64,000 nt of DNA from Phaeocystidibacter marisrubri (lineage in GTDB: Bacteria > Bacteroidota > Bacteroidia > Flavobacteriales > Schleiferiaceae), in contig NZ_WBVQ01000001.1 of NCBI RefSeq assembly GCF_008933165.1, forward strand, positions 806,001 through 870,000, given 5' to 3'. The position numbers and the translations under genes were made by a program. The notes under the pieces are model-generated. The model searched no databases. It was not told the DNA's origin and saw only the letters and a list, made by a program, of their open reading frames with translations. Positions 11,723 to 17,411 of this stretch are shown one piece after another (position 1 is the first letter of the stretch; every line of letters starts with the position of its first letter).

Positions 11723-12611
11723 AACGATTGGCGGCTTCCTTGAGGTGGCTGTAGATTTCGGTAGCTAGAGATGAAGGTTGAGTCACTTTAACGCGAGCTC
11801 CCATCATCAAGATACGTTGAATAAATTCGTAATTGGGAATCACTTTGACTTCAAAAACGGTCTCTAGACTTCCATCGCGGATAATTCGCTGACTCTTGTG
11901 TAGCGGCAACGTCTTTAAGTATTGCGATTGAACAGGGTCACAGGTAAAGCGAACGGTTTCTACCTTTCCTCTACTGTGGTCCAATCCAACAACATGGGTA
12001 AAGCGATCGCGAGGATCTTCAGCTGGTGGATCAAACTTTTGATCGCGAATTTTTAACTCCTCAATCCGGTCGATGCCAAAGGTGCGGTCTTCTCCATTTT
12101 GCTGCTTTCCGATGAGGTACCACCTTCCCTGATACTGCTTTAAAAGTAGGGGTTGGAGGGAATAGTGTTTTACTTGATCTGTTTCGAACTTCCGGTAATC
12201 AAACCCAATCCACTTATGCTCTTTTACCGCCTGAACCAATGTGGGTAACCAGCGTGTACCTGCCCAAAGCCCCTCGTGTTCAAAGCTCACAAACGGTGAC
12301 ATTTCCTTCTGCTCGCGTAGGGCTTGACCCACAATTTCGGAAACACGCGAAACACCAAGGAAATCAAGGAACTTATCCGTCGCTTCCTGACCTTCTTCGG
12401 AAATGAAATAGCCGTCTTTTCCCTTGTGGTAGAGGATGTCCACTCCAAAAGTTTCTCGAAGGTGGGCAATGTCCCCTTGAATCGTCCGTGTGCTCACAGA
12501 AAACCCTTCATCCACCATCTTTCGATTTATCTGAATGAGTGATGGAAATTCCCCTTTATGGAGTATTTGAATCAAGACGCCAAATCTTGGTAGTGCTTCT
12601 TGCAAGTTCAT
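11715..12611 (-). CDS. WYL domain transcriptional regulator
   Basis: A 298-residue DNA-binding regulator: an N-terminal winged helix-turn-helix (about 5-60), then a WYL domain (WIGFDYRKF near 145, GRWYLIGK near 175, GIDRIEEL) that typically binds a nucleotide or nucleic-acid ligand, then a C-terminal extension. It is the first gene of a three-gene minus-strand unit with the RluA-like and DUF1801 genes. A TATCTTTG box ends only four bases before the ATG, so the transcript may be leaderless. WYL proteins control DNA-damage, defence or metabolic genes; the target here is unknown. Confidence 0.92.
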   Translation of the reverse strand: MNLQEALPRFGVLIQILHKGEFPSLIQINRKMVDEGFSVSTRTIQGDIAHLRETFGVDILYHKGKDGYFISEEGQEATDKFLDFLGVSRVSEIVGQALREQKEMSPFVSFEHEGLWAGTRWLPTLVQAVKEHKWIGFDYRKFETDQVKHYSLQPLLLKQYQGRWYLIGKQQNGEDRTFGIDRIEELKIRDQKFDPPAEDPRDRFTHVVGLDHSRGKVETVRFTCDPVQSQYLKTLPLHKSQRIIRDGSLETVFEVKVIPNYEFIQRILMMGARVKVTQPSSLATEIYSHLKEAANRYE

Positions 12612-12615
12612 TCTC

Positions 12616-12623
12616 CAAAGATA
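12616..12623 (-). promoter_or_regulatory. -7 box (TATCTTTG) immediately before the WYL regulator start
   Basis: The plus strand reads CAAAGATA. The box ends four bases from the ATG at 12611, which would place the transcription start at or beside the start codon. Confidence 0.55.
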
Positions 12624-12644
12624 AGGAAGAGGTGGTTAAAGTGA

Positions 12645-12845
12645 GCTGCGGATGTCAGACTCTAGGCTTCAGTCACCCGTCACCTATCACCTGTCATCCA
12701 TCATCCATCACCATCCTCAGCCACGCGAAAGGATTCGCGCGGCAGGACATCCGTCACCCGTCATCCATCATCTTCATCAGCCACGCGAAAGGATTCGCGC
12801 GGCAGGACATCTGACATCCATCACCCGTCACATCCCCTCAAAACC
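12645..12845 (-). repeat. Dispersed intergenic repeat, inverted copies with two palindromic cores
   Basis: Two palindromic cores (CGCGAA-AGGA-TTCGCG, at 12721-12742 and 12781-12802) lie exactly 60 bases apart in a 60-bp tandem duplication. They are flanked by short reiterated phrases of the type GTCACCCGTCATCCATCATC. The same core and phrases appear in the opposite orientation at 14.4, 15.8 and 16.0 kb. No coding capacity is evident. Confidence 0.85.
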
Positions 12846-12868
12846 AACATTCTTTCTATCTTCATACC

Positions 12869-13684
12869 ATGACAACAAAGCAAAGGCTAGAGCGAATCAT
12901 ATTTGAGTCGGATACACCAGCGGGAAAAGCGTTTGATGTTATTTTGATTTGGGCCATTGTATTTTCTATACTCATTGTCCTTTTTGATAGTGTAGATACA
13001 CTCCATGCCAAGTATGGAGAGCTGTTCTTCATTTTGGAATGGGTCTTCACGATTCTCTTCTCAATCGAGTATTTGCTGCGTGTTTTTATTTCCATTCGCC
13101 CAAGGAAGTACACCTTGTCATTCTTGGGGATTATCGATTTGATTTCCATTATCCCTACGTATTTGAGCCTAGTAATTGCTGGATCTCAATACTTAGTGGT
13201 AATACGAGGATTGAGGATTCTCAGAGTTTTCAGAGTCCTCAAATTGTATCACTATTCTAGAGATGGAATTGTGATGATGAGGGCATTGATCAATAGCTCA
13301 CGAAAGATCAGTGTATTTATTCTCTCCATATTGGTCATCGTAACCATTATGGGATCGCTGATGTACGTGATTGAAGGGGCCGAAAGTGGTTTTAAGGATA
13401 TTCCTAACTCCATTTATTGGGCCATCGTTACCTTGTCTACAGTTGGCTATGGTGATATTTCTCCCGTCACTCCGTTGGGGAAAATGCTGGCTTCTGTCAT
13501 CATGCTTCTGGGTTACGGTATTATTGCTGTACCAACCGGAATTGTAACTTCAGAATTTGTTTCAGCCCGCAAGGAAGAGACAGAAAGTAGAGCTTGTACG
13601 AATTGTGGAGCAAGTGTCCATCAAGTGGATGCCGAACACTGTTACAAGTGCGGTGTAAAATTGAATCAACCAAAATCTCAATAA
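12869..13684 (+). CDS. Voltage-gated potassium channel-type ion transporter with C-terminal zinc ribbon
   Basis: A 271-residue inner-membrane protein with six hydrophobic segments. The S4-like helix carries regularly spaced arginines ([11 protein letters not shown], about 113-123), and the pore has the potassium selectivity filter TVGYGD at 191-196. After the last helix, a short cytoplasmic tail contains two CxxC pairs (Cys243/246 and Cys258/261), a small zinc ribbon. It should form a tetrameric potassium channel. The zinc-ribbon tail is an uncommon add-on but is read directly from the sequence. The gene is followed by ybjQ-like after two bases. Confidence 0.93.
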
Positions 13685-14007: not shown

Positions 14008-14349
14008 CTAAAGCAATCGTGTTCCATTTTTCACTTCTCGTTCCGGTTGAATAAGAACCACTTCAGTATCGGGGTTATCATCCTTTGGAAGTCCGAGTAC
14101 CAAACATTCAGAAGTGATTTTACCGATTTGTCGGGGTGGAAAATTCACAACTGCCAATACTTGCCGACCTACTAAGTCGCTTACATCATAAAGCTTCGTG
14201 ATTCTCGCGGAGCTTTTTTTTATTCCTATCTCACTTCCAAAATCGATGGTCATAACCCAAGCAGGAACACGGGCATTTGGCAATTCATCAGCAGATAGAA
14301 CAGTGCCTACGCGGATGTCGGATTCTAGGAAAGATTCTATGGTTGTCAT
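14008..14349 (-). CDS. csaA: CsaA-like tRNA-binding protein
   Basis: A 113-residue OB-fold protein homologous to CsaA and to the C-terminal tRNA-binding domain of methionyl-tRNA synthetase: DIRVGTVLSADELPNAR, then the conserved NFPPRQIGKITSECLVLG segment. Known members bind tRNA and have been linked to chaperone activity. It converges on ybjQ-like with zero intergenic bases. Upstream lies a copy of the dispersed repeat, which leaves no obvious promoter box. Confidence 0.92.
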   Translation of the reverse strand: MTTIESFLESDIRVGTVLSADELPNARVPAWVMTIDFGSEIGIKKSSARITKLYDVSDLVGRQVLAVVNFPPRQIGKITSECLVLGLPKDDNPDTEVVLIQPEREVKNGTRLL

Positions 14350-14355
14350 GGGAAG

Positions 14356-14545
14356 TATGTTTTGGGTTTGATGGGTTTTAGAGGTTTAAGGCGTTTTAGA
14401 GGTTGGATGACGGGTGACTGTTGATGGAAGAGGGGTGTCACTACTACCGCGCGAATCCTTTCGCGTGAGTAAGGTAGAGTGTATTGGGTTTGATGGGTTT
14501 TAGAGGTTTAAGGTGTTTTAAAGGTTGGGTGACGGGTGACTCGTA
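14356..14545 (+). repeat. Dispersed intergenic repeat, one and a half tandem units
   Basis: The unit starts with a TTGGGTTTGATGGGTTTTAG phrase, continues with a GATGACGGGTGAC phrase, and holds one palindromic core (14447-14468). The first half then recurs from about 14482. These units match those at 15.7-16.06 kb and, inverted, at 12.65-12.85 kb. Confidence 0.88.
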
Positions 14546-14571
14546 ATTTAGTGTCTGAAACTGGGTCAAGC

Positions 14572-15270
14572 TTAGCCAGCAGGATCTTTATATAGACCCT
14601 CTAGATAGGAAATTCCTTGAATAGAGCTGATTTTCCATTGGTCATTTACCTTCACAGCTGACAACGATTGATAATGTGTATACTCTCTCACGTCTGTATT
14701 CCACGTCCATTGAAAACGTGCCGAATCGCCTTCAATCTGAATATGGTGAAGAGATATGAGTTTCCAATACTCATCTGGATAGTCTTGGCAAGCGCACCAA
14801 TTATCAGCACCGGTATCCCAATGTGTTAAACCATCCAAGATGTTTCTCCATTCTATACTGGACTGTTTAATAGATTCATCAATTTCCATGGCTATGGAAC
14901 GGTGCGTTTGAAGGAAATAATTTGAGAAGTATTGAGTGGAAATAAATTCTTTCACTAATTGATTGTATGCATGCCAATCAATCCCAACAAATATGGTGTC
15001 TGAATTGTCGTATTTAAAAGGGAAGTCATCTAGAAGCTCTGCTTCGTGCCACTCAAACATGTTCTGCACTAGAGATGTAAGTTGTAAACTGTCCGACACC
15101 TGGTTTTTGTACTCTTTATAATCCACTTTTGGTATATCAGTTGTCGGTGTTTGAGAAAAGGAAGAATCCTCCAATGAAACTTCCGTTACTCTACTTCTAT
15201 CTTGCTCAGTCGTATTTTGAGGAGAGCAACTGAGCAAGGTTATTATGGTTAATGGTAAGAATAATTTCAT
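14572..15270 (-). CDS. Hypothetical lipoprotein
   Basis: A 232-residue protein with a lipoprotein signal peptide: MKLFLPLTIITLLSC, so Cys15 would be lipidated after cleavage. The ATG at 15270 is preferred over an upstream in-frame codon because it gives a proper signal peptide and starts one base after the stop of the preceding gene. The mature part is rich in Ser, Thr, Asp and Trp and has no recognised domain; a C-terminal beta-rich half (AVKVNDQWKISSIQG) looks NTF2/SnoaL-like (weak inference). The gene lies between two copies of the dispersed repeat. Confidence 0.75.
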   Translation of the reverse strand: MKLFLPLTIITLLSCSPQNTTEQDRSRVTEVSLEDSSFSQTPTTDIPKVDYKEYKNQVSDSLQLTSLVQNMFEWHEAELLDDFPFKYDNSDTIFVGIDWHAYNQLVKEFISTQYFSNYFLQTHRSIAMEIDESIKQSSIEWRNILDGLTHWDTGADNWCACQDYPDEYWKLISLHHIQIEGDSARFQWTWNTDVREYTHYQSLSAVKVNDQWKISSIQGISYLEGLYKDPAG

Positions 15271-15271
15271 C

Positions 15272-15655
15272 TTAAGCAGCTTCAATGGAGATGAAGATCT
15301 CACGTAATCTTTGTTCAGTGTATTTCATTTCAAAGAAAATAAAAACCAAAAGAATACTTAGGACTATAAAGATACTCATGAAAAAAGAGGTCACTAAAGC
15401 ATAGTCGGTGTTTTGATACGCTTCAACACAGATGAATAAGGCTATGAAGGCATAGAAGAGAAAGGCTAGAATTAATATTGGATGAACTTCGATTTTCAAA
15501 GCCAAATTTTCTTTTTCGTCGATACCAGTAACTCTTACAACTTGACTTGTAGCCCCTCTGAAGTAGTTCAATAAGGACGGCCTCATCTTGAAATGATATA
15601 TTCTTCCATTTTGCCCAGAACTAGAACGGATTGAATAAAATCCATGTTCTTCCAC
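15272..15655 (-). CDS. Hypothetical membrane protein, 5' end possibly truncated
   Basis: The visible frame encodes about 127 residues from a GTG at 15655, with two hydrophobic helices (ILILAFLFYAFIALFICV and a second at about 90-110) and a soluble N-terminal part. The frame stays open with protein-like content upstream (ITTSNFTDKEIANSVEEHGF) to a stop at 15716-15718, but no ATG, GTG or TTG is found there. That stop lies at the border of a dispersed-repeat copy, so the true N-terminus may have been lost. It is coupled to the downstream lipoprotein gene (one base between stop and ATG). No family is recognised. Confidence 0.55.
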   Translation of the reverse strand: MEEHGFYSIRSSSGQNGRIYHFKMRPSLLNYFRGATSQVVRVTGIDEKENLALKIEVHPILILAFLFYAFIALFICVEAYQNTDYALVTSFFMSIFIVLSILLVFIFFEMKYTEQRLREIFISIEAA

Positions 15656-15721
15656 CGAGTTTGCAATTTCTTTGTCAGTAAAGTTTGATGTTGTGATGTA
15701 TTTCCGTGTAAGTAGTCATTG

Positions 15722-16060
15722 AAACATGAGGGAGTATGATTTGGGTTTGATGGGTTTAAGAGGTTTGAGGTGTTTTAGAGGTTGGATGACGGGGGACTGA
15801 TGACTGTTGATCGATGAGGGGTGTCACTTCTACTGCGTGAATCCTTTCGCGTGGGTAAGGGAGAGTGTTTTGGGTTTGAGAAGTTTTAGAGGTTTGAGGT
15901 GTTTTAGAGGTTGGATGACGGATGACAGTTGACGGATGACAGTTGATGGATGAGAGGTGACACTACTACCGCGCGAATCCTTTCGCGTGGATAAGGGAGA
16001 GTGTTTTGGGTTTTAGAGGTTTGAGGTGTTTTAGAGGTTGGATGACGGATAATTGATGAC
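15722..16060 (+). repeat. Dispersed intergenic repeat, two and a half tandem units
   Basis: Two complete units with palindromic cores at 15833-15854 and 15969-15990 and a third partial unit to 16060. The second unit also has an internal doubling of a GATGACAGTTGACG phrase. The first core has two substitutions relative to the others. Confidence 0.88.
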
Positions 16061-16099
16061 TGGAACTTGCGCCAGCCCATACAAAGTCCTTGCGCAGCC
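16058..16099 (+). repeat. Seed block of the 24-bp array, shared with 16853-16894
   Basis: The stretch TGACTGGAACTTGCGCCAGC and the following bases up to TTGCGCAGCC recur almost identically at 16853-16894. The block contains a half unit (CTTGCGCAGCC) of the neighbouring array, so it is the likely seed from which the array grew. Confidence 0.75.
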
Positions 16100-16411
16100 C
16101 TTGCTCCAGCCACCTGCGCAGCCCTTGCTCCAGCCACCTGCGCAGCCCTTGCTCCAGCTACCTGCGCAGCCCTTGCTCCAGCTACTTGCGCAGCCCTTGC
16201 TCCAGCCACCTGCGTAGCCCTTGCTCCAGCCACCTGCGTAGCCCTTGCTCCAGCCACCTGCGTAGCCCTTGCTCCAGCCACCTGCGCAGCCCTTGCTCCT
16301 GCCACCTGCGTAGCCCTTGCTTCAGCCACCTGCACAGCCATTGCTCCAGCTACCTGCGTAGCCCTTGCTCCAGCCACCTGCGTAGCCCTTGCTCCAGCTA
16401 CCTGCGCAGCC
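16100..16411 (+). repeat. Tandem array, 13 units of 24 bp
   Basis: Thirteen head-to-tail copies of CTTGCTCCAGCCACCTGCGC followed by AGCC, with no spacers. Variation is almost all C/T at two positions (CCA or CTA in the middle; GCGCAG or GCGTAG near the end). The unit is a multiple of three, so frames remain open across it on both strands without being genes. The last unit supplies the stop codon (16398-16400) of the neighbouring minus-strand gene. Confidence 0.95.
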
Positions 16412-16787
16412 CTTCTTTCTCAATCACATACGAAGTGATAGATTTTATCATTTTGCCACTTGCACTTGTAAACTCGTAGAAATCGGCGAAGCCAAAGACC
16501 TTTCCATCCTTCATCTTCATTTCTCCATTTACAGAAGCAGCTTTTCCGTGCGTTACTAAGTTAAAAATTGAGAGCTCCATAACAGTGTTATCTGCCATTT
16601 TTATGAGCTCTTCTTTAAAGGCCTTTTTTCCCTGTATCGGCTGATGGCCAACCAAGGTCCAAAGAATGTTCTCATCCAAGAATTCCACGGCTGCATCTAC
16701 ATCGTACTTAGCGAAGAGTAGCGTTAAGTTCTTTATGAGTTCGCCTTTCGGAGAATTTCCACAGTGAGAAGGAATGTGAGTTTTCAT
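16398..16787 (-). CDS. NTF2/SnoaL-like protein with repeat-derived C-terminus
   Basis: A 129-residue cytoplasmic protein of the NTF2/SnoaL superfamily: N-terminal helices, the FLDENILWTLVGHQPIQGK segment and the curved beta sheet ending in DFYEFTSASGKMIKSITSYV. Members act as small-molecule isomerases, hydrolases or ligand binders; no catalytic pair is evident, so activity is uncertain. The last codons (GLRR and the TAG stop) lie inside the final unit of the 24-bp tandem array. Units of the other variant would read TGG in place of TAG, and the frame would run on as GLRRWLEQ repeats. Confidence 0.82.
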   Translation of the reverse strand: MKTHIPSHCGNSPKGELIKNLTLLFAKYDVDAAVEFLDENILWTLVGHQPIQGKKAFKEELIKMADNTVMELSIFNLVTHGKAASVNGEMKMKDGKVFGFADFYEFTSASGKMIKSITSYVIEKEGLRR

Positions 16788-16814
16788 AGAGCGGAGAAAG
16801 AAATGAATTGAACA

Positions 16815-16900
16815 GTTTATGAGGTTTAAAGGGTTTTAGGGGGTGGAAGACTGATGACTGGAACTGCGCCAGCCCTTACAAAGCCCTTGCGCAGCCCTTG
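16815..16900 (+). repeat. Degenerate copy of the dispersed repeat plus seed block
   Basis: GAGGTTTAAAGGGTTTTAGG-like bases are followed by GACTGATGACTGGAACTGCG and the seed block (16853-16894) seen before the 24-bp array. It has no palindromic core and no expansion of the 24-bp unit. It sits just beyond the stop of the YkgJ-like gene. Confidence 0.7.
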
Positions 16901-16922
16901 TGAAACCATTCTGCAGCCCCTC

Positions 16923-17411
16923 TCACCTTTCCAGTACCCTCTCCAAAATCGTAAATACAGCCGGACAAATACTGGCATTTTTACGCGTAAGGTGCAGGAT
17001 CTGTTGCTGTTTATCCCTGTCGGTGTGTGGATATTCGCGGCAAGCTTTAGGACGAACATCGTAAATGCTACAATAGTTGTCTTCTCCTAAGAAGGTACAT
17101 GGAACGGATTGAAGGACATGATCGCCGTCTTCGTCTACTCTGAGGTATTTTTCTTCGAAGTCGGCAGCTTTCATTTTTAGATGTTTGCTGATTCGATCAA
17201 TGTCTTTTCGGGTAAAGAGAGGGCCTGTTGTTTTACAACAATTCGCACATTGCAGACAATCCGTGCAGGCAAATACTTCTTCGTGCAATTGATGTATTTC
17301 GCGATCGAGCTTTTTTCCATCTTCCTTCGCTAATTTTCGCACGAGTTTTTGATGCGCCTTTTTCTTGGCAGCAGCAGCTTGTTTGAGTTGGGGAAGGAGT
17401 TCGTGCGACAT
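16923..17411 (-). CDS. YkgJ family cysteine cluster protein
   Basis: A 162-residue cytoplasmic protein with the zinc/iron-chelating cysteine cluster of the YkgJ/UPF0153 family: CTDCLQCANCCK (about 49-60), then PCTFLGEDNYCSIYDVRPKAC, with the RPxxCRxYP motif. These cysteines probably bind a metal or an iron-sulphur cluster; the biochemical role is unknown. It begins two bases after the TlpA-like gene and is the last gene of a seven-gene minus-strand run starting at the TPR protein. Confidence 0.9.
   Translation of the reverse strand: MSHELLPQLKQAAAAKKKAHQKLVRKLAKEDGKKLDREIHQLHEEVFACTDCLQCANCCKTTGPLFTRKDIDRISKHLKMKAADFEEKYLRVDEDGDHVLQSVPCTFLGEDNYCSIYDVRPKACREYPHTDRDKQQQILHLTRKNASICPAVFTILERVLER

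Follow-up and report, generated by a model that had tools for sequence, protein, structure and literature searches.

An intergenic 24-bp minisatellite likely reached the tolerant end of an NTF2-like gene in Phaeocystidibacter marisrubri

The stop codon and the last four codons of a gene for an NTF2-like protein lie inside a 24-bp tandem array in the 64,000-nucleotide stretch of P. marisrubri DNA analyzed here (the window). We think it likely that a minisatellite in the space between genes expanded as far as the end of a probably acquired gene, where changes are tolerated, and a little way into it. The overlap between the array and the gene is in all likelihood harmless, a by-product of repeats spreading between genes in this genome.

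Results

The array and the gene end

The array was delimited by TRF, a table of its units and column counts (16091..16414, minus strand; gene-sense unit GGGCTGCGCAGGTGGCTGGAGCAA). TRF gave a period of 24, 13.5 copies, 93% matches and a score of 543. The identity of the array at lag 24 was 0.93, where the best of 200 single-base shuffles over lags 10–59 reached 0.41, and the array is far above chance expectation. An earlier note on this DNA had correctly recognized an array here, but its edges (16100–16411) were too narrow. The same note took C/T at the stop-forming base to be the main difference between units. Unit position 21, which decides between TAG and TGG in the gene's reading frame, has a T in 4 of 13 units and a C in 9, but position 5, which falls in a silent Leu codon in that frame, varies more (7 of the 13 full units have a C and 6 have a T).

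The NTF2/SnoaL_2-like gene (16398..16787, minus strand), assigned from its ORF, Pfam and homologues, encodes 129 aa and has its end inside the array. The protein ends with ...YVIEKEGLRR followed by TAG, and GGGCTGCGCAGG-TAG is repeat sequence. Among the terminal codons GAA GGG CTG CGC AGG TAG, the part GGG CTG CGC AGG TAG belongs to the repeat, placing both the GLRR codons (16401..16412, minus strand) and the TAG stop (16398..16400, minus strand) in the array. Here the unit table and the ORF agree with the earlier note, whose prediction that a TGG in place of the TAG would continue the frame as WLEQGLRR was confirmed by the reading frame.

The SnoaL_2 Pfam match of the protein (E 2.4e-5, 25.3 bits) is under the curated cut-off of 27. 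The best PDB match, 3f14 (NTF2-like), is weak (E 0.093), and its chain stops at the position of SYVI, the last conserved motif. A single-sequence structure model had a mean pLDDT of 46.3, too poor for use in judging whether the protein has the cone-shaped alpha+beta fold of NTF2-like proteins.

Homologue ends

One search located homologues of the 129-aa protein in 8 of 60 genomes, and another, over 395 genomes of the order sampled from a larger group, located them in 24; the own genome is counted in both cases. Local tblastn was run on 24 homologue loci, and seven without an alignment were dropped (L016, L288, L289, L290, L292, L293, and L294). The 17 aligned homologues run 2–11 residues past the SYVI position, with a median of 3; the tail has at most 4 residues in 14 of them and at least 7 in 2. 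In the window protein, SYVI is followed by EKE (3 residues) and then by the array-derived GLRR, which means that the array begins about where the protein normally stops. GLRR is likely an extension added by the array; since 2 of the 17 homologues also have tails of at least 7 residues, the 7-residue tail of the window protein is inside the homologue range, and the extension is likely rather than proven.

The earlier note had regarded homologues ending in the same place without an array as evidence against a role of the array in setting protein length. This is nearly what was found: the 17 alignable homologues share their end, and no AGCCC-type repeat was seen by eye in the 220 bp behind each of the 7 homologues checked.

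The insert around the array

The gene order around the array is common to the own genome and two same-genus genomes, G001 and G002. The genes at 16923–17411 (CxxCxxCC family) and 14008–14349, the latter of which we take to be CsaA-like, are 2573 bp apart in the window. By eye, their counterparts overlap by 1 bp in G001 and by 14 bp in G002, where the 14-bp figure assumes the nearest in-frame upstream ATG as the start and the upstream gene ends with TGA. The intervening 2573-bp insert (14350..16922; tblastn synteny, junctions by eye) is missing in both same-genus genomes, as is the NTF2-like gene, which is thus either a gain here or a loss in both relatives.

The insert contains three same-strand ORFs and three composite repeat blocks that share an orientation, one at each end and one in the middle. 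Block A (14350..14571, plus strand) shares 86% identity with block B across 197 bp by blastn. Block B (15740..16050, plus strand; TRF and blastn) has a 136-bp period, and block C (16812..16920, plus strand), behind the CxxCxxCC gene, matches block B by blastn (78% over 81 bp). Part of block C, a short segment with a core match at 16889, is related to the array family. The insert looks as if genes came in with or between repeats.

A second repeat type, with GGATGAC-like stretches, AACCCCTAA-like 9-mers and the palindrome-like CGCGAAAGGATTCGCG, was observed in several intergenic regions, namely at 12672–12831, 14350–14571 and 15740–16050 of the window and at 1529–1899 and 12212–12978 of locus L103.

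The repeat family in the genome

The array belongs to a GC-rich family with the core AGCCCTTGC / GCAAGGGCT and units of 24–25 bp and other lengths. When at most one mismatch was allowed, the 13-mer core matched 47 times in the own genome versus once for the reversed control. The own genome contains 48 pairs of the core, G001 and G002 contain none, and 2 of the other 116 genomes contain one each, with one genome per species in the comparison set. A scan of the collection for three AGCCCYTGC cores returned at least 119 stretches in many unrelated groups, so the core taken alone does not single out this genome. A search of the contig collection for related loci found none.

Related arrays are dispersed in the own genome and are mostly non-coding. 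The clusters at C1:685k, 822k, 873k and 1191k and at C2:433k and 542k were read directly, and the other clusters were placed against ORF calls. Single core matches within called genes (L083 12538, L090, L091, and L092) appear to be fortuitous. In two large sister arrays the unit is 25 bp long, and the unit of exactly eight codons stressed in the earlier note is not a feature of the family.

TRF rows with a period of at least 9 numbered 43 in 464 kb of the own genome (window included) versus 28 in 400 kb of G001, counts in which overlapping rows are separate and some rows are coding. Both genomes are rich in tandem repeats, with differing units, and the difference between them suggests a possibly rapid turnover of repeat sequences from one species to the next. 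G001 (L113–L132) has tandem repeats of its own, such as TCTAACCATCTAACCC and GAAAGGATCCCGCTGGCGCGG. At L110 13683–16292, a long ORF holds two coding arrays of 186-bp units, with 9.0 and 3.3 copies.

Effect of copy-number change on the protein

According to the earlier note, changes in unit number could lengthen or shorten the protein. We modeled slippage as whole-unit deletions of 1 to 12 units and duplications, placed at each possible offset within the array. The protein stayed at 129 aa in all 2028 duplications and in 1884 of the 2028 deletions; the remaining 144 deletions lengthened it by 8–56 aa, and none shortened it. Among single-unit changes, the protein was unchanged in 285 of 301 deletions and in all 301 duplications. 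No modeled deletion shortens the protein because the stop sits at the gene-proximal edge of the array, and this position buffers the protein against copy-number change. A common effect of unit number on protein length is thus not what the model gives.

Four TAG codons, the gene's own stop included, lie in the frame of the gene within the array, with 15, 55 and 7 codons past the first stop before the successive next stops. The open frame through the units that marks a coding, phase-variable repeat is consequently absent. The later units carry three further TAG codons and several non-silent changes, and they are without sign of coding constraint. Long ORFs crossing the array in other frames were treated as spurious. 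The modeled slippage, the further stops in later units and the positions at which homologues end led us to reject a phase-variable C-terminus as the main reading.

Family arrays at other gene ends

A second gene ends in a family array at C1:685k. There, a MotA_ExbB gene (L082 9376–9738; Pfam E 2.2e-9) ends with ...LLIWVGLRR-TAG inside an array of 530 bp with 25-bp units. Neither G001 nor G002 has a close match to this small MotA/ExbB-like gene, the best showing 41% identity. Its closest homologue (L263, 57% identical) has seven more residues where the own protein has RR, and the array may thus have slightly shortened the protein. The sequence GGGCT-N-CGCAGG-TAG occurs 9 times in the genome, and 2 of these occurrences are at the two gene ends.

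At C1:873k, a 190-aa ORF, for which a Pfam search gave no match at E 0.1, ends with ...LAQPL-TGA in repeat sequence, and the gene facing it, presumably SpoT-like, stops 3 bp from the array. One further gene of the family flanks, which we assume to be Crp-like, stops 5 bp before an array. The L085 gene, which we regard as peptidase-like, is 27 bp from its array by TRF but adjoins it at its TAG by eye.

Using gene calls from our own heuristic, which missed the gene at 16923–17411 that is backed by Pfam and orthologues, a family array edge was found at most 5 bp from a gene end or inside it in 5 of 9 flanks, versus none of 14 flanks of the other repeats found in these sequences, with distances by TRF edges (Fisher one-sided p 0.004). 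Adding the by-eye contact of L085 gave 6 of 9 flanks (p 0.0008), and adding an omitted family flank, which is 693 bp away and behind another array, gave 5 of 10 (p 0.006). With arrays behind other arrays omitted in both groups, the counts were 5 of 9 versus 0 of 10 (p 0.011); with the window omitted, 4 of 8 versus 0 of 14 (p 0.010); and with both the window and the unsupported ORF omitted, 3 of 7 versus 0 of 14 (p 0.026) or versus 0 of 10 (p 0.051). As an after-the-fact comparison, this excess at gene ends is a hint.

Discussion

The sequence of events that we propose starts from repeat DNA that would spread between the genes of the lineage by slippage and recombination. The NTF2-like gene would have been acquired first, with the array arriving later and filling the non-coding space behind it, expanding until further change would hit the conserved part of the protein. 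The array would run about four codons past the native protein end; the native stop would have been replaced, and the gene would now use the first in-frame TAG, which the first unit provides by chance. The four added residues come after the last conserved motif and are probably neutral.

Two functional explanations of the array were weighed. The array could be a contingency device, in which slippage toggles the protein between its 129-aa form and versions extended by WLEQGLRR repeats and so tunes its function. A 24-bp unit equal to eight codons would suit such a device, a single TAG to TGG change would add 16 residues as far as the next TAG, and the 144 modeled deletions that extend the protein by 8–56 aa point the same way. 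However, all of the modeled duplications and 93% of the deletions are silent, the later units carry three more TAG codons and non-silent changes, the two sister arrays with 25-bp units are unable to stay in frame, and the 17 aligned homologues are without such a repeat tail, all of which makes this explanation very improbable. We give scarcely any credence to the array being a transcription terminator or an mRNA 3′-end stabilizer of the preceding genes: although arrays sit behind several genes, the predicted folding of the array transcript equals that of shuffles (z 0.07), and the L087 member lies between two gene starts.

A bias in dispersal was also considered, by which the family would spread in short units with a preference for inserting or expanding at the ends of genes, where they supply or abut the stop. 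MIRUs insert at overlapping stop/start codons, a behavior comparable to such a bias. The 5 of 9 flanks at gene ends versus none of the 14 other repeats, with L085 as a sixth by eye, argue for it, as does the ending GGGCT-N-CGCAGG-TAG shared by two genes. Family edges near gene ends are not predicted by chance overlap alone, but tolerance behind stop codons would predict them, and selection against arrays in promoters yields the same pattern. Moreover, the comparison is post hoc, with small numbers, heuristic gene calls and a p of 0.051 in its strictest version; the shared ending is at these gene ends in only 2 of its 9 occurrences; and, among other members, L088 and L086 are 66 and 159 bp away from the nearest gene ends, and L087 is flanked by two gene starts. 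On balance, such a bias appears rather unlikely. Slightly more doubtful still is a wider version, in which a mobile minisatellite family seeds or grows preferentially at stop codons, several genes now owe their stops and last residues to repeats, and the family, with the composite repeats, may mark the entry of genes into operons, as in the 2.57-kb insert.

The spread of an intergenic minisatellite into a tolerant gene end, the reading that we prefer, places the array among repeats of a known kind. PMC6749651 describes prokaryotic satellites as at least 4 head-to-tail units of 10–200 bp, some short-repeat families being species-specific and scattered in one genome. With its 13.5 tandem units of 24 bp and its family dispersed within one genome, the array resembles them and fits an intergenic minisatellite (prokaryotic satellite). 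The term “stop codon” is absent from the main text of PMC6749651, so stop-supplying arrays are not described there in those words. As far as the account in PMC9879509 goes, the repeats of Borg elements are also tandem, between genes and genome-specific, with intergenic units mostly not divisible by three; however, they are perfect, A-enriched, and carried by archaeal extrachromosomal elements, whereas the array family is imperfect, GC-rich, and situated in a bacterial-type genome, on a contig of 1.64 Mb. Mycobacterial MIRU-VNTRs, compared here by their description in PMC2734929, are likewise dispersed near gene borders and some are tandem, but their units of 40–100 bp are longer than the 24-bp unit of the array. 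In the titles and abstract openings of the papers listed by our literature searches, we found no account of the array repeat or of a stop-supplying minisatellite in this bacterial group, which leaves its absence unproven.

The gene described here is a clear small example of spreading non-coding repeats taking over a gene end. It illustrates that an in-frame repeat unit with a length that is a multiple of three need not imply that the repeat is coding or acts as a switch. Should the bias toward gene ends prove to hold in further genomes, this would suggest a mechanism by which bacterial minisatellites disperse.
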